Below, piece after piece: positions 33,355 through 42,688 of a stretch of 64,000 bases of DNA (positions are counted from its first letter, which is position 1; each line of letters opens with the position of its first letter). Made by a program: the position numbers and the translations under genes. Origin of the DNA: Bradyrhizobium sp. WSM1417 (GTDB taxonomy: Bacteria > Pseudomonadota > Alphaproteobacteria > Rhizobiales > Xanthobacteraceae); NCBI RefSeq assembly GCF_000515415.1, contig NZ_KI911783.1:5939831-6003830 (forward strand), written 5' to 3'. The notes under the pieces were generated by a model, which was not told the origin of the DNA, made no database searches, and saw only the letters and a list, made by a program, of their open reading frames with translations.

Positions 33355-33837
33355 CTATCCCTCCTTGAACCCGTATTCCGGCACGTTGCCGCTGGCGCCG
33401 TAATATTTGTACGGCAGGAATTTGCCGCTCATGGTGATCTTGACGCGGTCGCCCTTCGGGTTGGGCAGGCGCTCCATCACCATGTCGAAATCGATCGCCG
33501 ACATGATGCCGTCGCCGTACTCCTCCTCGATCAGCGCCTTCCAGGCCGGACCGTTGACCATGACCAGCTCGTAGAAGCGATAGATCAAAGGATCGGTCGG
33601 CGGCATCGGCATGCCGCGCATCGGCGTCTCGTTCAGCATCGCGGTCTCGGCCTTCGTCAGGCCGAAAAGTTCAGCGGCGTTTGCTGCCTGCGGCTTGGTC
33701 AATTTCATCTGGCCGAGGATCGCACCTGTTATCAGCACCTCGGAATAGCCGCCGATCTGCTCGCAGATATATTTCCAGGTCCAGCCCTTCTCGCGCTTGA
33801 TGTCGAGCAGCTTCTCGGTGAGGTCTTCGCGTTTCAT
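33355..33837 (-). CDS. cynS: Cyanase (cyanate hydratase)
   Basis: A 160-residue enzyme that turns cyanate and bicarbonate into ammonia and CO2. The N-terminal helical domain and the C-terminal catalytic domain are both complete, with the catalytic triad in YRFYE (R87, E90) and GIMSAIDF (S113). The ATG at 33837 has GGGAGA upstream. It is downstream of the ABC importer on the same strand, separated by 72 bases that contain a palindromic repeat, so the importer may bring in cyanate. Confidence 0.96.
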   Translation of the reverse strand: MKREDLTEKLLDIKREKGWTWKYICEQIGGYSEVLITGAILGQMKLTKPQAANAAELFGLTKAETAMLNETPMRGMPMPPTDPLIYRFYELVMVNGPAWKALIEEEYGDGIMSAIDFDMVMERLPNPKGDRVKITMSGKFLPYKYYGASGNVPEYGFKEG

Positions 33838-33857
33838 GTCAGGGTCTCCCTTCAAAA

Positions 33858-33900
33858 GCATGATCCGGAAAAGTGTGAAGCGGTTTTCCCTAGATCATGC
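33858..33900. repeat. GCATGATC...GATCATGC palindromic repeat
   Basis: GCATGATCCGGAAAA is mirrored by TTTTCCCTAGATCATGC. This element type is widespread between genes in Bradyrhizobium and relatives. Here it separates cynS from the ABC ATPase gene and might attenuate or process the transcript. Confidence 0.65.
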
Positions 33901-33909
33901 GTCTCCAAA

Positions 33910-34833
33910 TTAGGCAGTCAGCCCGGGACTGGTCCCGGGTATCCAGGTCTGTCGTTGCTCGTCGCCACCGGACGCGACGGTCAGTCCGGGCTTGCCGATA
34001 TGCACCACCGGCACATTGCGCGGATCGTGGCCGGGCGTCTCGGCTGCGAAAGTCTTGCTGCGCGTCACCAGGAAATCGACGATGTGGTTGCGCAGCGCGT
34101 AGTACAGCGGATGGCGGTGCAAATCGGTGCGGCCGCGGTCCCTCGGCAGCGGGTTCTCGACAACTTCCGCCAGCACCGCGCCGGGACCGTTGGTCATCAG
34201 GAAGATCTTGTCGGCGAGATAGATCGCCTCGTCGACGTCATGGGTGATCATGAACGCGGTCTGCCCGGTCTCGAGACAGATGCGCCGCACCTCGTCCTGC
34301 AGCGTGCCGCGCGTCAGCGCGTCGAGTGCCGAGAACGGCTCGTCCATCAGCATCATCTTTGGCGTAATGGAGAGCGCACGCGCGATGCCGACGCGCTGCT
34401 TCATGCCGCCGGAAAGCTCGGAAGGTCGCTTGTGTTCCGAACCCGTCAGGCCGACGAGATCGATGAACGTCTGCGCATGCGCCTTCACCTTGGCGCGATT
34501 CCAGCTCCGCCATTTCGAGCTCACGGCGTAGGCAACGTTGCCGAGCACGGTGCGCCAGGGCAGCAGCGCGTGGCTTTGGAAGATCACGGCGCGATCGAGG
34601 CTCGTCCCTGAAATGGCCTGCCCGTCAACGATCACCGCGCCCTCGCTCGGCGCGTCGAGGCCGGCGAGGATGTTGAGCACCGTGGTCTTGCCGCAGCCGG
34701 AATGGCCGATCACGCAGCAGAACTCACCGCGCGCCATCGACAGCCACAGATTCTCGAAGATCGTCGTTGTCGCGCCGCCCGCGCCCGGGTAGCGCTTTGC
34801 GATGGCTTCGATGGAGATGAATTTTTCGGTCAC
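33910..34833 (-). CDS. ABC importer ATPase, nitrate/cyanate/sulfonate class
   Basis: A 307-residue ATPase with Walker A GHSGCGKTT, signature LSGGMKQR, Walker B MLMDEPFSALD and switch His in MITHDVDEA. The sequence is of the NrtD/SsuB/TauB group. About 50 residues after the core have no recognised domain. It starts four bases after the permease stop, so the two are co-translated. Confidence 0.92.
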   Translation of the reverse strand: MTEKFISIEAIAKRYPGAGGATTTIFENLWLSMARGEFCCVIGHSGCGKTTVLNILAGLDAPSEGAVIVDGQAISGTSLDRAVIFQSHALLPWRTVLGNVAYAVSSKWRSWNRAKVKAHAQTFIDLVGLTGSEHKRPSELSGGMKQRVGIARALSITPKMMLMDEPFSALDALTRGTLQDEVRRICLETGQTAFMITHDVDEAIYLADKIFLMTNGPGAVLAEVVENPLPRDRGRTDLHRHPLYYALRNHIVDFLVTRSKTFAAETPGHDPRNVPVVHIGKPGLTVASGGDEQRQTWIPGTSPGLTA

Positions 34834-34837
34834 GGCC

Positions 34838-35677
34838 CTACTCCGGAAACGTGACCATGCGCGTGAAACGCGCGAGGATCTGGTCGAGCAGCATGCCGAC
34901 CACCCCGATCAGGAGGATCGCGATGATCACATTGGTGATCGACAAATTGTTCCACTCGTTCCAGACGAAATAGCCGATGCCGGTGCCGCCGACGAGCATT
35001 TCGGCGGCGACGATCACGAGCCAGGCGATGCCGATCGAGATGCGCATGCCGGTCAAAATCGTCGGCGCCGCTGCCGGCAGGATCACGGTGAAGGCGCGCC
35101 TGATGGTTCCGACCTCGAGCGTTCGCGCGACGTTGATCCATTCCTTGCGTACGCTCGCGACCCCGAACACGGTGTTGAGCAGCATCGGCCAGATCGAGCA
35201 GATGAAGATGACGAAGATCGCGGAGATCGAGGAATCCTTGATGGTGTAGAGCGCGAGCGGCATCCACGCCAGCGGCGAGATCGGCTTCAGCACCTGGATG
35301 AAGGGATCGAGCGCCTTACTCAGCAGCGGCGACATGCCGATCAGGAAACCGAGCGGGATGGCGACCAGCACGGCGAGCAGATAGCCGGCGCCGACGCGCG
35401 CGATCGAGTAGCCGAGCTGGATGCCGAGCCCCTTGTCGTTAGGTCCGTTATCGTAGAACGGCCTCCTCACATGCTCCCAGAGTTTTGCGCCGACGTCGAG
35501 CGGCCCGGGCATGGCGGATTTGCCCTGGGTCGCGGTCAGGCCCATCAGCTTGGCGTATTCCGGGCTCATCGTAGCCACCGGTGCGGTCGAGCGCACGGCG
35601 AGATGCCAGACGCCAAGGAACGCGACGAGCAGCACGATCGAGACCAGGCCGGCGCGGACGCGAAGCGACGAGGTCAC
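34838..35677 (-). CDS. ABC importer permease, nitrate/cyanate/sulfonate class
   Basis: A 279-residue membrane protein with a first helix near residue 10-25 and about five more from 95 onwards. The cytoplasmic loop with RTLEVGTIRRAFTVILPAAAP is the EAA-type contact with the ATPase, and GIAWLVIVAAEML is typical of NrtB/SsuC permeases. It starts at GTG 35677, overlapping the binding-protein stop in a GTGA arrangement, with AGGAAGG upstream. Confidence 0.92.
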   Translation of the reverse strand: MTSSLRVRAGLVSIVLLVAFLGVWHLAVRSTAPVATMSPEYAKLMGLTATQGKSAMPGPLDVGAKLWEHVRRPFYDNGPNDKGLGIQLGYSIARVGAGYLLAVLVAIPLGFLIGMSPLLSKALDPFIQVLKPISPLAWMPLALYTIKDSSISAIFVIFICSIWPMLLNTVFGVASVRKEWINVARTLEVGTIRRAFTVILPAAAPTILTGMRISIGIAWLVIVAAEMLVGGTGIGYFVWNEWNNLSITNVIIAILLIGVVGMLLDQILARFTRMVTFPE

Positions 35678-37053
35678 GACGCCTTCCTGATCTTGAAGCC
35701 CGCCAAGTAATCCTCCGGCTTGGCAGGATCGAAAGTCTTGCCCATCACCGCGAACGATTTGTAGCTGCCGGCTGGCGGCGCCAGGCCCATCTCGGTCATC
35801 AGCTTCCTGGTGTCGGTGGCGAGATACACCTGCTCGGCAACCGCCTTGTAGTCGACGTCGCCCTTGATCTGGCCCCAGCGCTTCATCTGCGTCAGCATCC
35901 ACACCGCGAAGGACTGCCAGGGGAACGGGTCGAAATCGACGCGCTTTTCATCCGTCTTCACGCCGCCGAGGCCATCGGCATAGGTGCCGGTCAGGACCTG
36001 TTCCAGCACCGTGACCGGCGCGTTGATGTAGTTCGCCGGCGCGATCGCCTCGGCGATCTGCTTGCGATTCTCCGCCTTCGACGCATAGGCGGTGGCATCG
36101 ACGATCGCGCGCGTCAGCGCGGCAAAGCTGTTCGGCGCCGTCGTGATGAACTCGCGGCTGGCGGCGAAGCTGCAGCAGGGATGTCCGTCCCAGATTTCCT
36201 TGGACAAGAGATGCATGAAGCCGACGCCGTCATAGATCGCGCGCTGGCAGATGTTGTCGGGCGCGAGGAAGCCGTCGATGTTGTCGGCGCGCAGGTTTGC
36301 CACCATTTCCGGCGGCGGTACCGAACGCAGCTGCACGTCGGCGTCGGGGTCGATCCCGTGTTCGGCGAGATAGTAGCGCAGCAGATAATTGTGCATGGAA
36401 TAGTCGAAGGGGATGGCGAACTTCATGCCCTTCCAGTCCTTCGGGTCGCGCTTGTCCTTGTGCTTGCTCGCCAGCACGATGCCCTGGCCGTTGATGTTCT
36501 CGATCGCGGGCACCGCGAACGGAATGGCGTTGGCACCCAAGCCAAGCGAAATCGCGAGCGGCATCGGCGCCAGCATGTGCGCGGCGTCGTATTCCTTGTT
36601 GATGGTCTTGTCGCGGATCACGGCCCAGCCCGCCGTCTTGACCACGTCGACGTTGAGGCCGTGCTTGGCATAGAAGCCCAGCGGCGCCGCCATGATGATC
36701 GGCGTGGCGCAGGTGATCGGGATGAAGCCGACCTTGAGGTCCTTCTTTTCCGGCGCGCCGGCTTGCGCAAAGACTTCGGTGGCGGTCTGAAGCGGGAAGA
36801 ACTGCGACAGCGCGGCCAGCGCGGTTGAGGCACCGACCGACTTCAGGAATGCGCGCCGCGCAACGTCCTGCGGAAACATCGCGCGCATCACGGCAGAGGC
36901 GACCACGCCCTCGTAGCGCTTCTCCTCGCTCTCGACGGGATCACAGCGCAATGCGGTGGCCTGCTCGTGCTCAGCCGCGGATTGATGCTGACCACAGGCA
37001 CAGCCGGCTCGCAGGTTGCGATCGGGATCAAACGGATTGTCGAAAGTGGACAT
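35674..37053 (-). CDS. CmpA/NrtA-type ABC substrate-binding protein with Cys-rich N-terminal extension
   Basis: A 459-residue protein. A canonical twin-arginine signal (RRAFLKSVGAS at about 66-76) lies unusually far in, after a 60-residue extension containing AGCACGQHQSAAEH and an RCDP, which could bind metal or a cluster. The mature part (KVGFIPITCATPIIMAAPLGF onward) matches the NrtA/CmpA family that binds nitrate, bicarbonate, cyanate or related small solutes. It is the first gene of the importer-cyanase group and has a sigma54 promoter 35 bases upstream of its ATG. The ligand is not known. Confidence 0.88.
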   Translation of the reverse strand: MSTFDNPFDPDRNLRAGCACGQHQSAAEHEQATALRCDPVESEEKRYEGVVASAVMRAMFPQDVARRAFLKSVGASTALAALSQFFPLQTATEVFAQAGAPEKKDLKVGFIPITCATPIIMAAPLGFYAKHGLNVDVVKTAGWAVIRDKTINKEYDAAHMLAPMPLAISLGLGANAIPFAVPAIENINGQGIVLASKHKDKRDPKDWKGMKFAIPFDYSMHNYLLRYYLAEHGIDPDADVQLRSVPPPEMVANLRADNIDGFLAPDNICQRAIYDGVGFMHLLSKEIWDGHPCCSFAASREFITTAPNSFAALTRAIVDATAYASKAENRKQIAEAIAPANYINAPVTVLEQVLTGTYADGLGGVKTDEKRVDFDPFPWQSFAVWMLTQMKRWGQIKGDVDYKAVAEQVYLATDTRKLMTEMGLAPPAGSYKSFAVMGKTFDPAKPEDYLAGFKIRKAS

Positions 37054-37087: not shown

Positions 37088-37102
37088 GCAAGGAGCATGC
37101 CA
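37088..37102 (-). promoter_or_regulatory. Sigma54 (-24/-12) promoter of the ABC importer operon
   Basis: On the minus strand the bases read TGGCATGCTCCTTGC. GG and GC are exactly 12 bases apart, as sigma54 RNA polymerase needs, and only one base departs from TGGCACG-N4-TTGC. The predicted start of transcription is near 37076, 23 bases before the ATG, with AGGAGG between. Confidence 0.8.
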
Positions 37103-37161
37103 TCACCTTCAGGCCGGCCAGTGCCTTGATGACGCAGCACTTTCACTCGCACTTGGTCATT

Positions 37162-37211
37162 ACGAAAATTCGTGATAAACGATATTTCGTAGTTGAATAA
37201 CGAGATTTCGT
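37162..37211. promoter_or_regulatory. Three copies of an ACGA-N4-TCGT palindrome (likely activator-binding sites)
   Basis: The copies are ACGAAAATTCGT (37162-37173), ACGATATTTCGT (37179-37190) and ACGAGATTTCGT (37200-37211), spaced 17 and 21 bases apart. They lie about 86-135 bases upstream of the predicted sigma54 start of the importer operon, the normal distance for enhancer sites. The last copy ends one base before the ATG of the divergent activator gene, so binding there could also repress that gene. Confidence 0.75.
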
Positions 37212-37212
37212 A

Positions 37213-39141
37213 ATGGCAACGACGCCAATACTTGCCCACGACGATGTGGCCCCGAGCATCGATCCGCGCGTCGCGGCTTTCGAATCCTCGGTCGAAGCGA
37301 CGCTGCTGATCGACCCCTTCGGCGACCAGATCGTCGATGCCAATCCCGCCGCATGCGCCCTGCTCGGCTACGACCGCGCGCTGCTGCGCCAGACCAGGGC
37401 GAGCACGCTGCATGCCGGTGAGCTTCCGGCGCTGACCGTGTTCACCCAGGCCGTGCTGCACAAGGGCGCCTACTGGACCACGGCGCTCAACCCGCGCCAT
37501 GCCACCGGGCAAAATCTCCGGCTCGAATATGCGGGAAGCGTCCTGCCCCATGACGGGCGCACGCTGGTCCAGCTCACCCTCACCGATCTCGAAGCGCGCC
37601 GCCGCCGCAATGTCGATGCCGCAGCTGAAGACCACATGCGCAGCGGCATCTCGACCTGGCAGCGGGTCGAGCGCGTATTCCAGGACATCGAGCGCGAGAA
37701 CCAGCTGATCCTGCGCGCCGCCGGCGAAGGCATTTACGGCGTCAACGCGGAAGGAAAGACCACCTTCGTGAACCCCGCCGCCGAGCGGATGCTGGGCTGG
37801 ACGGCCGAGGAGCTGGTCGGCAAGGAAATCCATCCCATCATGCACCACACCCACCATGACGGGCGGCACTATCACAACCATGATTGCCCGATCTACGCGG
37901 CGTTCCGCGACGGCGCCGTGCACCAGGTCGACGGTGAGGTGTTCTGGCGCAAGGACGGCTCGCCGGCCTGGGTCGAATACACCTCCACGCCGATCCGCGA
38001 TCGCGGCGTGGTGGTCGGCGCCGTCGTGGTGTTTCGCGACGTCAGCCAGCGCCGCGAGGCCGACGAGAAGCTGCACGCCGCGCTGGCCGAGGTCGATCGC
38101 CTCCGCGAGCGGCTCGAGCTCGAAAACGCCTACCTCCAGGAAGAAATCCGCATCGAGACCAATCCGCGCGGCATCATCGGTGGCAGCGAGGCGATCCAGA
38201 CGACGCTGCGCCAGGTCAAGCTGGTGGCGCCGACCAGCGCGGCGGTGATGATCACCGGGGAATCCGGCACCGGCAAGGAGCTGATCGCGCGCGCCATACA
38301 CGAGGATTCTACCCGCAGAGACCGGCCGCTGATCCGCGTCAACTGCGCCGCGATCCCGCGCGAACTGTTCGAAAGCGAATTCTTCGGCCATGTCCGCGGC
38401 GCCTTCACCGGCGCGACGCGCGACCGCATCGGCCGCTTCGAGCTTGCCGATGGCGGCACGCTGTTCCTCGACGAGGTCGGCGAGATCCCGCTCGAATTGC
38501 AAGGCAAGCTGCTGCGCGTGTTGCAGGAGGGCAATTTCGAGCGCGTCGGCCAAGAGCGCACCCGCGCGGTCGACGTCCGCGTCATCGCCGCCACCAATCG
38601 CGACCTCAAGCAGGAGGTGCAGCGCGGCCGTTTTCGCGAGGACCTCTACTTCCGCCTCAACGTGTTTCCGATCGAGACGGTGCCCCTGCGCGAACGGCGC
38701 GAGGACATTCCTCTGCTCGCCCAGCATTTTCTCACGCGCGAGAGCAAGGCGCTGAAATCGAATCTGCGGCTGTCGGAAGGCGATGCGCGGCGGCTCGCTC
38801 GCTACGACTGGCCCGGCAATGTCCGCGAACTCCAGAACGTGATCGAGCGCGCCGCGATCCTGTCGCAGAACGGCCGTTTGCGGATTGATCTGCCCGACTC
38901 CTCTGGCACGCAGACCCCAGCTGGCGCCACGCGGCAGAAGGCTGACGCGCGGCCCGCTGTGATGACGTCATCCGAAATGCGCGACCACGAGCGCGCCAAC
39001 ATCCTGGCCGCGCTCGAGAGCTGCGCCGGAAAAGTGTTCGGCCCCGGTGGTGCGGCCGAGATGCTCGACATCAAGCCGACCACGCTGGCCTCGCGAATCA
39101 AGGCGCTGGGAATCGCGCCCCGTCCGCGGGCCGGCGGCTAG
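37213..39141 (+). CDS. Sigma54-dependent activator with PAS sensors (PAS-AAA-Fis)
   Basis: A 642-residue enhancer-binding protein. Two PAS regions (about 18-130 and 165-285, the second with the His-rich [16 protein letters not shown]) are followed by an AAA+ domain with Walker A GESGTGKE and the sigma54-contact loop GAFTGA (396-401), then a C-terminal Fis-type helix-turn-helix ([20 protein letters not shown]). There is no receiver domain, so it probably senses a ligand or redox state through PAS. It lies between two outward-facing operons that both carry sigma54 promoters, and three palindromes sit just before its own start codon. Confidence 0.95.
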
Positions 39142-39147
39142 CGGCGA

Positions 39148-40026
39148 TCACGCCGCCTTGGTCGTCACCTCCGATGCGATCGGCAATCCCTGCTCGATCG
39201 GCAGCGACGGATCGCGCGACCATTCGTTCCAGGAGCCGAAATACATCCGCACGTCCTTCACGCCGGCGTTCTTGAGCGCCAGGAACGTGTTCGAGGCGCG
39301 AGCCCCCTTGAAGCAGTAGAGATAGACCGGCGTGGAGGGCGAGATGCCGACCGTGGCGCATTCCGCCAGGATCTCGTCCTTGGATTTGAAGCGCGGTCCC
39401 TCGGCGGTCGGCTTCATCATGCGATACCATTCCAGCCACACCGCACCGGGAATGCGGCCCTTGCGCGGGCAGAAATCCTTCCCATAAGGCGACGAGCTGT
39501 CGCCGATCCACTCGTCGACGTCGCGCACGTCGAGGATGGCGACACCCGGCTTGCCGACGGCCGCCAGCATGGTCTTGGCGTCGATCAGGATCTCACCCGC
39601 TTCAGGCACGAGTCCGAACGACGCCTTCACCGGCGCCGGGACATCCTTCGTCACCGGAAGACCTGCGGCCACCCAGGCATCGAAGCCACCATGCAGCACC
39701 TTGATCTTGGGATAGCCGAGCATGGTGAGCAGGTAGTAGCCGCGGCAGGACTGGCCGAAGCCGGAGTTCATCGACTGCTCGTAGATCACGGCTGTTTCCT
39801 TGCCGGACAGGCCCGCGCCGCCAAAGGCGTCGGCGAATTTGGTCTTCAGCTCGGCCATTCCCTCCGGAGTCGAGGTCGCAAGAAACGTGAATATCTCATG
39901 CACGTTCACGGCATTGGGAAGGTGCCCGGCGCCATAGGTGTCGGGGTTGCGGGTGTCGATTACGACACAGGGCTCGGTCTTCAAGAGATCGGCAAGTTCG
40001 CTGGCAGAGATCAGAACGTCCGTCAT
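39148..40026 (-). CDS. Two-domain sulfurtransferase (rhodanese family)
   Basis: A 292-residue protein with two rhodanese domains. The first (about 1-130) is likely inactive; the second has the active-site loop YCFKGARAS with the persulfide Cys. Relatives move sulfur from thiosulfate or mercaptopyruvate to a thiophilic acceptor such as cyanide. GGAGAG precedes the ATG at 40026. It is the last gene of an OsmC / flavoprotein / sulfurtransferase group and converges on the sigma54 activator gene with six bases between. Confidence 0.9.
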   Translation of the reverse strand: MTDVLISASELADLLKTEPCVVIDTRNPDTYGAGHLPNAVNVHEIFTFLATSTPEGMAELKTKFADAFGGAGLSGKETAVIYEQSMNSGFGQSCRGYYLLTMLGYPKIKVLHGGFDAWVAAGLPVTKDVPAPVKASFGLVPEAGEILIDAKTMLAAVGKPGVAILDVRDVDEWIGDSSSPYGKDFCPRKGRIPGAVWLEWYRMMKPTAEGPRFKSKDEILAECATVGISPSTPVYLYCFKGARASNTFLALKNAGVKDVRMYFGSWNEWSRDPSLPIEQGLPIASEVTTKAA

Positions 40027-40072
40027 TGGCAGCCTCTCCGTTGAGGTTAGATGGTGGGTGGGCTCGTAGAAC

Positions 40073-41185
40073 TCAGGAATCGGCGAGCATCTTGCGCAGC
40101 TGCTTGGTGGCAGGCGTGACGATCGCGACGAAATAGGCCTCGCGCAGGCGGCGCTGCGCGCGGTGGGACTTGAGGTAGCCGCGCGCGCCACAATGCAGCA
40201 TCGCCGCATGCGCCGCGGCGACGCTGGCCTCGCCGGCGCGAAGTCGCAGCGCGATCACCTTGCGCCAGTAGGTCTCCTCTTCATTGTAGGGATCGCGCGC
40301 CAGCGCCATGGTCTCGGTCTCGAGCTCGGCGGCGAGTTCGCGGAAGTGCACCGGCTGTTGCGGCAAATAGCGGTTGATGTGACCGAGGGGATTGTCGACC
40401 TCGTCCATGATGTTGATGCAGTCCTTGATGAGCCCGAGCGCCATGCCGGCCTGCAGCAGGATGAATCCGGCGCGGATCTTCTTCACGAAGGGGCCGGCGG
40501 GATCGGCCAGGATCAGCTCGTCAGGCACAAAGGCGTCGCGGAACTGCACGCCGTAAGTGCCGGTACCGTCCATGGCGAGAAACGGCTTGCATGGCGTCAG
40601 CGTGATTGCGGGGTCGGAGCAGTCCGCGAGGAACATGACAGTGCCAGGCTCGTCCTCGCGTTCGAAGATGGTGCCGAAATAATGGCCCGGGCCGAGATTG
40701 GAGACCCAGGGCAGCGCGCCGCGCACGATGTAGCCGCCCTCGACCTTGCGCCCCTTCAGCTTGAGCTTTTCGATGCCGAAAAAGCTCTTCATCGGATTGG
40801 AAAGCCCGGTGCCGCCGAGCACGCGACCGGTCGAGAACGCATCGCCGAAACGCTTTGCCAGCTTCATGTTGGTGGAGTTGGCGGCGTACCAGACCAGTGT
40901 GTTCTGGCACCACGCCATGAAGGCGGTGCTGCCGCAGACCTCGCCGATCGCCGACATGGCCTGGATCGCACAGCGCAAGTCTGCGGGCCCTTCGTGCGGC
41001 ACGTGACTGCCCCAGGCGCCGACCTCGCCGAATTGGCGCAGCACCTCGGCGGGATAGATGGTGCCGTCATCGATGCCGGCGGCGAGCGGCGCGAGCTGCT
41101 CCCGCGCAATCCGCGCCACCTCGCCTGCAATGGACGGTGCGGGCTGATCCAAAACTTCGGCCCGTGATAAAGCCAGTGAACCCAT
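40073..41185 (-). CDS. Acyl-CoA dehydrogenase-like flavoprotein
   Basis: A 370-residue protein with the full acyl-CoA dehydrogenase fold: an N-terminal helical domain, a middle beta domain (GGTGLSNPMKSF, PWVSNLGPGHYF) and a C-terminal helical domain. The usual catalytic Glu of the true dehydrogenases is not evident around HCGARGYLKSHRAQ, so it may be one of the flavin monooxygenase or sulfur-scavenging relatives (DszC/SfnB type). The ATG at 41185 has GGGAG upstream. It lies between the OsmC and sulfurtransferase genes with short gaps. Confidence 0.82.
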   Translation of the reverse strand: MGSLALSRAEVLDQPAPSIAGEVARIAREQLAPLAAGIDDGTIYPAEVLRQFGEVGAWGSHVPHEGPADLRCAIQAMSAIGEVCGSTAFMAWCQNTLVWYAANSTNMKLAKRFGDAFSTGRVLGGTGLSNPMKSFFGIEKLKLKGRKVEGGYIVRGALPWVSNLGPGHYFGTIFEREDEPGTVMFLADCSDPAITLTPCKPFLAMDGTGTYGVQFRDAFVPDELILADPAGPFVKKIRAGFILLQAGMALGLIKDCINIMDEVDNPLGHINRYLPQQPVHFRELAAELETETMALARDPYNEEETYWRKVIALRLRAGEASVAAAHAAMLHCGARGYLKSHRAQRRLREAYFVAIVTPATKQLRKMLADS

Positions 41186-41216
41186 GGTCGTCTCCCGCAC
41201 CTTGTCCTGTTGCCGT

Positions 41217-41765
41217 CTACGAGATGCCGACCTCGAGATTGACCGGGCGGGTGAAGGTGTTGGCGACCGGCGACCATTGCTTCACATGGGCGACCAGCGC
41301 ATTGATCTCGTCCGGCGAGATCCCCTCACATTCCATGTCGACCTTGACGCGCACATCCGTAAATCCAACGGGCTTGTCCGAGATGTCACCGGTGCCCCAC
41401 ACCGCAGTGATGTTGAGGTCGCCCTCGAGCTCGAGCTCGAGCTTGTTGACGATCCAGCCGCGATGCACGGCGTTGGCGTGCAGGCCGACGGCGAGGCAGG
41501 AGCCGAGCGCGGCGAGCGAGGCTTCGGACGGATTGGGCGCGGTGTCGTCGCCCAGAAGCCCCGGCGGCTCGTCGACGATGTAGGGCGGCAGACTGCGGAT
41601 ATAGTTGGCGTGGCGGAATTTTCCTTCCGCGACCGTCTTGCACTTCAAGGTCTTGATGACCTTCGGATTGGCCTTGCCGTTGGCGATCAGTTGCTCGAGG
41701 CCATTCTTGTCGATGGGCGCGAGGCAACCCGTCAGCACTGTCTTTTGAACGACGGCAGTCATCAT
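41217..41765 (-). CDS. OsmC-family thiol peroxidase-like protein
   Basis: A 182-residue OsmC/Ohr-fold protein. Family marks are GDDTAPNPSEASLAALGSCLAVG with one reactive Cys, and VDMECEGISPDEINALV. A second Cys lies in LKCKTVAEG, near the N-terminal strand. The family reduces peroxides or handles reactive thiols. The ATG at 41765 has GGGAGAAG upstream and a near-consensus sigma54 promoter about 55 bases before that. It is the first gene of its operon. Confidence 0.88.
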   Translation of the reverse strand: MMTAVVQKTVLTGCLAPIDKNGLEQLIANGKANPKVIKTLKCKTVAEGKFRHANYIRSLPPYIVDEPPGLLGDDTAPNPSEASLAALGSCLAVGLHANAVHRGWIVNKLELELEGDLNITAVWGTGDISDKPVGFTDVRVKVDMECEGISPDEINALVAHVKQWSPVANTFTRPVNLEVGIS

Positions 41766-41817
41766 CTTCTCCCTGGCAGAAGTGGAAATCGGCAGGATAC
41801 CGAACGGTCTGTTTCCT

Positions 41818-41833
41818 TGCACGGAGCGTGCCA
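41818..41833 (-). promoter_or_regulatory. Sigma54 (-24/-12) promoter of the OsmC operon
   Basis: On the minus strand the bases read TGGCACGCTCCGTGCA. It matches the TGGCACG-N4-TTGCA consensus at all but one position, and GG and GC are 12 bases apart. The predicted transcript starts near 41807, about 43 bases before the OsmC ATG. No ACGA-N4-TCGT palindrome was found within 180 bases upstream. Confidence 0.85.
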
Positions 41834-42007
41834 GATGAGGCCAAAATCAAAAGGCGAAGTATTGGAGCCTCTTAGCGAACACTGCCTGCGGATTGATCAG
41901 CCGCCGTTTGCCCAAAGGCGATGCAGACGGGCTTTCCCGTGCGAATCTTTTCAGCGCGAACAGATGCGGCTTGCTGATGCGGCGCGGCTGCGGGTAAGTT
42001 TGGACTC

Positions 42008-42688
42008 ATGGCCAAGCTTTCACTGAACAAGCCCTCCCCGAACAAGACGTCAAAGAAGAAGTCTCATTCGCCGCACGGCGGCGCCAGTGACGACGAGTCC
42101 GCGCGCGGACGCCTGCTCAACGCGGCGACGCATCTGTTCTGCAAGAACGGCATCAACGCCACCGGCATCGACGCGATCATCGCGGAAGCCGGCACCGCGA
42201 AGACCACGCTCTATAAATTGTTCGGCTCCAAGACCAATCTCATCAACGCGGTGCTGGAGAGCGAAGGCAAGCAGTGGCGCGAATGGTTCATCGGCGCCAT
42301 GGAAGAAGGCGGCGGCGACGCCCAGGCCAAGCTCACGCGCATCTTCCCGGCCCTGAAGAGCTGGTTCGCGGAGGAGCGCTTCTACGGCTGCCCCTTCATC
42401 AACGCGGTCGGCGAGCACGACAAGGACGCCAAGCAGTTCCGCAACATCGCGCTGAAGCACAAGAAGATCGTGCTCGGCCACATCGAGAAGCTCGCCGGCG
42501 AGCTCGGATCGAACGAGCCCGTCGTGCTCGCGCACCAGCTCGGGCTGTTGATAGACGGCGCCATCGTCGCCGCGATGGTGTCGCGCGATCCGGGCGTGGC
42601 GGATACGGCAGCGCTGACGGCGGGTCCCCTGCTCAGCCAGCCCAAGGCAAAGAAGAAGCGCGCGGCGGATCAGTTAGAGGCGGTGTAG
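42008..42688 (+). CDS. TetR/AcrR-family regulator
   Basis: A 226-residue protein with a Lys/Ser-rich N-terminal tail (1-30), a TetR helix-turn-helix (LLNAATHLFCKNGINATGID, then AGTAKTTLYKLFGSKTNLI) and an all-helical ligand domain. It diverges from the OsmC operon, sharing a 240-base intergenic region, and so may regulate it or itself. The ligand is unknown. Confidence 0.92.
   Translation: MAKLSLNKPSPNKTSKKKSHSPHGGASDDESARGRLLNAATHLFCKNGINATGIDAIIAEAGTAKTTLYKLFGSKTNLINAVLESEGKQWREWFIGAMEEGGGDAQAKLTRIFPALKSWFAEERFYGCPFINAVGEHDKDAKQFRNIALKHKKIVLGHIEKLAGELGSNEPVVLAHQLGLLIDGAIVAAMVSRDPGVADTAALTAGPLLSQPKAKKKRAADQLEAV

Follow-up and report, generated by a model that had tools for sequence, protein, structure and literature searches.

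The window analysed here, a stretch of 64,000 nucleotides from Bradyrhizobium sp. WSM1417 (genome of 8.05 Mb, one contig), carries two neighbouring gene sets on the reverse strand, cynABDS (37053-33355) for an ATP-binding cassette (ABC) importer and cyanase, and an operon for an OsmC-like protein, a flavoprotein and a rhodanese (41765-39148; the osmC operon), with the sigma-54 activator gene cynF between them (Table 1). The reading favoured here, with moderate confidence, is that the two gene sets have neighbouring sigma-54 promoters with different enhancers, that CynF drives cynABDS, that another activator, most likely NtrC, checked by a TetR-family protein, drives the osmC operon, and that the two sets serve linked metabolism. 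The promoters carry different control sites and are therefore probably served by different activators, not united in the single regulon that had been proposed in a first-pass annotation of this DNA. The promoters have been published in part and the activator is known in kind; the new part is the separable control elements and what is best read as a repeated change of owner of the cyanase genes.

In the proposed mechanism, CynF would bind two or three TTACGAAATTTCGTAA-like palindromes upstream of the cynA promoter and, once its signal is present (cyanate for the Pseudomonas relative), drive cynABDS, for the import of cyanate and its hydrolysis to ammonium. The osmC promoter would be activated under nitrogen limitation, most likely by NtrC, at TGC-N11-GCA sites about 110 bases upstream of the transcription start, and the divergently encoded TetR protein, placed on a palindrome over the start, would hold this promoter off until its ligand appears. 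In many congeners that lack cynF and its promoter, cynABDS or cynS alone stands directly behind the rhodanese gene, a position from which the cyanase of such joined loci is probably read from the osmC promoter.

Sigma-54 promoters and their control sites

Sites of the -24/-12 type had been annotated at 37102-37088 and 41833-41818, each with exactly 12 bases from GG to GC; both were present as described, and they were the only matches in the window to TGGCACGNNNNTTGC with at most one mismatch. The counts in the window alone do not exceed chance (figures below), so the case for promoters was built on conservation and position. The osmC site read TGGCACG-N4-RTGCA in 24/24 loci (the window and 23 others). 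For the wider counts, 90 osmC loci were taken from 143 matches, found in 142/391 genomes of the family. Of the 81 loci in which OsmC is at least 70% identical, 80 have a site with a score of at least 13.5, and the remaining one is truncated by a contig end; among all 90 loci, seven failed (L128, L143-L147 and L149). Before cynA, a site with a score of at least 12.9 (of 15.8), a threshold chosen after the first results had been seen and lower than the 13.5 for osmC, was recorded in 67 of the 71 scored loci of alpha- and gammaproteobacteria (failures: L051, L070, L075 and L077). These 71 remained from 80 after the omission of eight loci without a cynA match and of L028; L023 was scored on its second copy. 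Where cynS alone adjoined the activator gene, the site stood before cynS (7/7 loci). Conservation of the -24/-12 bases at orthologous loci, which the first-pass annotation had set as the check, thus came out in favour of both promoters.

In the accessible text of a 2026 RpoN study of Bradyrhizobium sp. DOA9 (PMC13207237), a table of predicted RpoNc sites (Table 1 there) gives TGGCATGCTCCTTGC before BRADOA9_v1_50923, a nitrate-type binding protein, and TGGCACGCTCCATGC before the OsmC-like gene 50927; 50927, 50926 and cynS were down in rpoN mutants, and cynS and osmC were seen under microaerobic nitrogen-fixing growth. The DOA9 genes were taken as orthologues of those of the window from the agreement of sites, annotations and gene numbers; on this basis, the dependence of the two gene sets on RpoN has already been published. 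That text names no activator, enhancer or TetR operator for these genes and describes no evolutionary switch. From conservation and this reported RpoN-dependent expression, both sites are probably sigma-54 promoters. One RpoN is encoded in the genome of the window.

The activator had been described as a PAS-AAA-Fis protein, which agrees with the two PAS stretches, the sigma-54 interaction domain and the Fis-type helix-turn-helix (HTH_8; 19.4 bits, slightly below the cut-off of 22) found with Pfam, and as the sole GAFTGA activator in the window, where the only G[AES]FTGA in six frames lies within it at 38398. It is of the type of CynF of cynFABDS, with the same divergent layout, importer and cyanase. 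In cynFABDS of P. pseudoalcaligenes CECT5344, as far as given in the accessible text of the report (PMC6627978), a divergent sigma-54 activator, an ABC importer, the cyanase gene in last place and a putative -24/-12 site before cynA are likewise found, CynF is essential for cynABDS, and expression is induced by cyanate and repressed by ammonium. According to the same text (PMC6627978), the P. mendocina cluster is 97-98% identical to that of CECT5344. The activator of the P. mendocina locus L078 is 58% identical to that of the window; the closest relatives by activator were Bradyrhizobium (98% identity, a B. canariense record). The annotated control of the importer by the activator is supported by this activator type, and the cyanase, for which membership had been given as possible, belongs to the importer operon, as shown for cynFABDS. 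Unlike the CECT5344 locus, the window has the osmC operon with its own sigma-54 promoter behind cynF, and in many congeners without cynF the two gene sets are joined.

Upstream of cynA, the palindrome ACGA-N4-TCGT was present in 66 of the 67 loci with a sigma-54 site (shuffled mean 0.2), with the consensus TTACGAAATTTCGTAA, and 57 of these loci had two or three copies; upstream of osmC it was found in 0/83 loci. In the similarity-thinned set it was present in 45/46 cynA upstreams (dinucleotide shuffles 0.3). No copy occurred in the window beyond the three at 37162, 37179 and 37200, and TTACGAAATTTCGTAA with at most three mismatches was found twice against 0.06 expected, above chance. The third palindrome ends just before the cynF start codon (37200-37213), and from this abutment CynF may also control itself.

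Upstream of osmC, TGC-N11-GCA was present in 68/83 promoters (4.9 in shuffles), and upstream of cynA in 3/67, the chance level, so the upstream motifs of the two promoters exclude each other. In the thinned set it was found in 24/36 osmC promoters (shuffles 5.0, largest 12). Among the loci with OsmC identity above 90%, 46/51 have it precisely 92 bases upstream of the -24 T; in other genera it was patchy. Paired sites 29-31 bases apart, the second one looser, were recorded in 46/80 osmC loci against 0.08 in shuffles; NtrC site pairs about 32 bases apart occur in the glnA enhancer. Dinucleotides were kept in the shuffles of the thinned sets, and base composition only in those for the unthinned motif, palindrome-arm and site-pair counts. 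NtrC is encoded in the genome of the window (744.8 bits against a cut-off of 558.6). In the accessible text of PMC10746234, a footprint of S. meliloti NtrC covers TGC-N11-GCA at 95-121 bases upstream of the start, and the motif is said to occur in NtrC-activated glnII promoters; half-sites and spacing are the same as in the window. In that case NtrC represses a sigma-70 promoter, whereas the motif of the window stands above a sigma-54 promoter (PMC10746234).

Directly after the -12 element of osmC and over the expected start, ACAGAMCGKTCKGT, a pattern drawn from the window and its relatives, was found once in the window and in 0/100 shuffles. At least six of the eight palindrome arms were paired in 44/80 loci (shuffles 6.7, largest 13) and all eight in 11/80, for example TACAGAACGTTCTGTA and GACAGACCGGTCTGTC. 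A TetR gene diverged from osmC within 500 bases in 80/81 loci. In L210, from another family, the gene order is the same (osmC, flavoprotein, rhodanese, binding protein, TetR gene), and by eye two palindrome copies flank the -24/-12 element. These positions suggest that the TetR protein binds the start-site palindrome. With CynF palindromes at 66/67 cynA and 0/83 osmC upstreams, and with another motif and an operator-like palindrome beside the TetR gene at osmC, the tempting picture of one regulon under this activator gives way to two promoters whose control sites are distinguishable by sequence.

Loci without cynF and the position of the cyanase genes

Among 75 osmC-bearing congeners, CynF was found in 46 and was lacking in 29, as called at an expectation value of 1e-200, a level that fragments in draft genomes could escape. 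In the 29 genomes without it, cynS shared the strand of osmC and lay 5.9-6.3 kb downstream in 25 and 2.7-2.8 kb downstream in 2; it was on another contig in 1 and absent from 1. The gap from rhodanese gene to cynA was 85-130 bases in all 25 joined loci, the cyn genes standing directly behind osmC-flavoprotein-rhodanese, and no CynF palindrome was found before cynA in any of the 25. All three osmC promoter elements were present in 20 re-read loci, 18 of them without CynF and two with it; the 29 congeners without CynF, and the 18 loci that keep the elements, speak further against a single regulon.

On a tree of the osmC operon with 65 loci, the presence of cynF required 10 changes, at least 8 of them forced by well-supported branches (shuffled mean 21). 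The tree was a quick one with support only from the Shimodaira-Hasegawa-like approximate likelihood ratio test, its rows were cut to about 2,050 bases, and recombination within the operon would make the count of changes too high. It supersedes a first tree with 3 changes, from which 25/65 rows (loci ending inside the rhodanese gene) had been dropped. Both states occur together in L023, L171, L203 and L161, where one cynA follows the rhodanese gene and a second follows cynF; in L203 these copies agree at 61-85% in blocks of 80 columns. This natural series of separate, duplicated and joined loci indicates how the activator of a catabolic gene set can be exchanged, and the switch may have been driven by two cynA copies flanking cynF.

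The body of the window's cynA (columns 140-469) was 94.5% identical to the joined copies and 74.7% to the other type, and its first codons have two residues in common with the CynF-adjacent type. MS-F-NPFDP was found in 31/32 CynF-adjacent copies; D at 6 together with A or S at 10 was found in 24/32 osm-operon copies (by the pattern used), and one osm-operon copy, L196, has the N. A recombination joint near the cynA start is suggested by this, thinly, since columns 1-60 of window-type cynA are as a whole nearer to the joined copies (73.0% against 59.4% for the other type). The gap between the rhodanese gene and cynA of joined loci, L184 and L187 among them, shows a GC-rich hairpin and, where the rhodanese gene stops, a weak sigma-54-like CGGCATAGAACCTGCA.

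Activators of the osmC promoter

Several points weigh against the favoured reading. In the window alone, TGGCACGNNNNTTGC was at chance (2 found, 2.00 expected; 55/100 shuffles reach 2), and TGGCAYGN5TGC (2 found, 0.59 expected, 12/100 shuffles), ACGA-N4-TCGT (3 found, 1.11 expected, 10/100 shuffles) and TGC-N11-GCA (21 found, 31.7 expected) were likewise not above it, and the shuffle statistics ignore shared descent. The start-site palindrome of the window itself pairs in 5/8 arm positions only. TGC-N11-GCA was absent from 12 of the 80 osmC promoters with OsmC identity of at least 70%, all in other genera (L112-L115, L117, L119, L129, L131, L133, L136, L139 and L142), and its position varied in more loci of other genera. 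The own-genome control was poor, with the motif above one of six further sigma-54-like sites read (before an apparent urea-binding-protein gene, by eye) and none at the glnB promoter; no clear sigma-54 site was found in two of the three P-II loci, and two genome pattern scans for NtrC sites were weak (6 and 3 matches, with 2 and 1 in the respective controls). In each of the 25 joined loci, the sigma-54-like sequence with the highest score ahead of cynA was CGGCAYARAANNTGCA (score 12.7; 13.4 in L187), which straddles the rhodanese stop codon with its TGCA beyond the stop, and in the aligned junctions it is followed by a GC-rich hairpin between the rhodanese gene and cynA. From CGGCAYARAANNTGCA at this place, cynA of the joined loci may keep a separate weak promoter of its own.

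The most serious alternative, possible though on balance unlikely, is that osmC responds to another sigma-54 activator, distinct from both CynF and NtrC, which would itself recognise TGC-N11-GCA. The inner bases of the motif, as well as its position, differ between genera, the motif is absent from the glnB promoter of the same genome, and six places of the genome besides NtrC and CynF give matches to the middle part of the NtrC model, of which one is weak. The spacing of the paired sites is nevertheless close to that in the glnA enhancer. The motif is also the one described for rhizobial NtrC in the accessible text of PMC10746234, and the appearance of DOA9 cynS and osmC under microaerobic nitrogen-fixing growth (accessible text of PMC13207237) fits NtrC control and does not show it.

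That CynF, bound near 37160-37211, activates both promoters, that of osmC by long looping, is improbable. As far as the sequence tells, CynF could reach the osmC promoter over a distance of 4.6 kb; both sites look like sigma-54 promoters with CynF between them, genes of either set are reduced in DOA9 rpoN mutants (accessible text of PMC13207237), and the sets are joined in relatives. Against this, none of the 83 osmC upstreams has a CynF palindrome and a different upstream motif is kept there instead, and the osmC promoter elements are intact both in congeners without CynF and in genera with CynF far off in the genome, for example G066 and G180. A fortuitous -24/-12 match at osmC, with control by TetR only from a sigma-70 promoter, would agree with the chance-level count in the window and is very improbable, because the site is kept in 80/81 orthologous loci and the OsmC-like gene falls in DOA9 rpoN mutants (PMC13207237, accessible text).

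Gene content and neighbouring observations

The osmC operon is treated in the favoured reading as linked to cyanate metabolism. No description of an osmC-flavoprotein-rhodanese operon with cyanase, or of a TetR operator there, was found among the open-licence papers listed by the literature searches or in the accessible text of those cited here; the tie makes the substrate of this uncharacterised operon testable in rhizobia. Among the OsmC translations, GSC was found in 88/90 and WSPVAN in 81/90. OsmC/Ohr peroxidases are taken here to have two catalytic cysteines, the second at the WSPVAN position, and in these 81/90 translations the serine of WSPVAN stands at that place. The catalytic glutamate of acyl-CoA dehydrogenases presumably lies in the EGT stretch of the short-chain enzymes; in the alignment of the flavoprotein with 7y0a, VTPAT stands at the EGT position, towards the less certain end of the alignment, and the flavoprotein thus apparently lacks this stretch. 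Structure prediction of the flavoprotein with an alignment of 8 sequences gave a mean predicted local distance difference test (pLDDT) value of 46.3.

A ferredoxin-reductase-like gene was found behind the rhodanese gene in L124 and L130, from two other genera; in L130 an importer is next, with a match of its binding protein to the SsuA family that stays under the cut-off. In the family, cynS was present in 132 of the 142 genomes with osmC and in 151 of the 249 without it, counts that include shared descent and distant OsmC homologues. The flavoprotein was found in 3/385 genomes of the class, two of them of the genus of the window, and the operon is therefore narrow. Its gene content fits a small anion containing nitrogen and sulfur. 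More speculatively, and doubtful as a whole, cyanase in Bradyrhizobium may have passed between CynF, as its dedicated cyanate-sensing activator, and the nitrogen- and TetR-controlled osmC operon by recombination of cynA copies flanking cynF. The osmC operon would then be a new route to cyanate, e.g. from thiocyanate or a similar small C-N-S anion that its own binding protein would help to import; the flavoprotein would split off the sulfur, and rhodanese and OsmC would carry it.

Table 1. Positions, strands and supporting matches of genes and control elements in the window.
Feature	Position	Strand	Basis
cynS, cyanase	33355..33861	-	PF02560/PF21291; PRK02866 and cynS models above cut-off
cynD-like ABC ATPase (nitrate-type)	33910..34833	-	ntrCD model 287.1 bits, slightly below cut-off 291.8
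cynB-like permease, start approximate	34838..35680	-	ntrB 226.7 bits, above cut-off 209.05
cynA-like substrate-binding protein, body of osm-operon type	35674..37053	-	NMT1_2; best PDB relatives NrtA and CmpA-like chains
-24/-12 promoter of cynABDS, TGGCATGCTCCTTGC	37088..37102	-	pattern match; conserved (see text)
CynF-type palindrome 1, ACGAAAATTCGT	37162..37173	.	ACGA-N4-TCGT match
CynF-type palindrome 2, ACGATATTTCGT	37179..37190	.	ACGA-N4-TCGT match
CynF-type palindrome 3, ACGAGATTTCGT, ending right before activator ATG	37200..37211	.	ACGA-N4-TCGT match
cynF, PAS-PAS-AAA(sigma-54)-Fis activator	37213..39141	+	Pfam domains; GAFTGA
two-domain rhodanese (sulfurtransferase)	39148..40029	-	PF00581, two stretches; PDB relatives YnjE and thiosulfate sulfurtransferases
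flavoprotein, acyl-CoA dehydrogenase superfamily	40073..41185	-	PF02771; PDB relatives
OsmC-like protein	41217..41765	-	PF02566; start codon chosen by conservation
operator-like imperfect palindrome ACAGACCGTTCGGT over expected start	41799..41812	-	sole window copy; same place in relatives
-24/-12 promoter of osmC operon, TGGCACGCTCCGTGCA (also written TGGCACGCTCCGTGC(A))	41818..41833	-	TGGCACG-N4-RTGCA
NtrC-like site TGCATCGCCTTTGGGCA, 92 bases upstream of -24 T	41909..41925	-	TGC-N11-GCA
second, looser NtrC-like site CGCTGAAAAGATTCGCA, 31 bases further upstream	41940..41956	-	paired-site scan
TetR-family regulator, divergent from osmC	42008..42688	+	PF00440

Both operons had been annotated as outward; both are on the reverse strand, cynABDS reading away from the activator gene and the osmC operon towards it. 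For osmC, the mechanical open reading frame list gives a GTG start at 41822, which was rejected because it falls within the promoter; the ATG at 41765, which fits, was taken. The last stop codon of the osmC operon (39148) is 7 bases from that of the activator (39141); with the two stop codons nearly touching, transcripts of the osmC operon may extend antisense into cynF. In 19 relatives, 13-243 bases were recorded between the aligned ends of cynF and the rhodanese gene. A terminator-like pattern scan of 38800-39500 gave one weak site, with 0.4 expected.

Further OsmC matches stand in other gene settings (gene content read for L144, L150 and L151). A second osmC-flavoprotein pair (OsmC 55-61%) lies beside another importer in L144-L150, with no TetR match in these loci and no sigma-54 site in 5/7. 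In L151 (7216-10261), whose OsmC homologue is distant (40%), a sigma-54-like site is present and a gene for a GAF-type sigma-54 activator lies nearby. In the CynF-bearing genomes G368 and G390, the cynS match contains a single in-frame stop codon.

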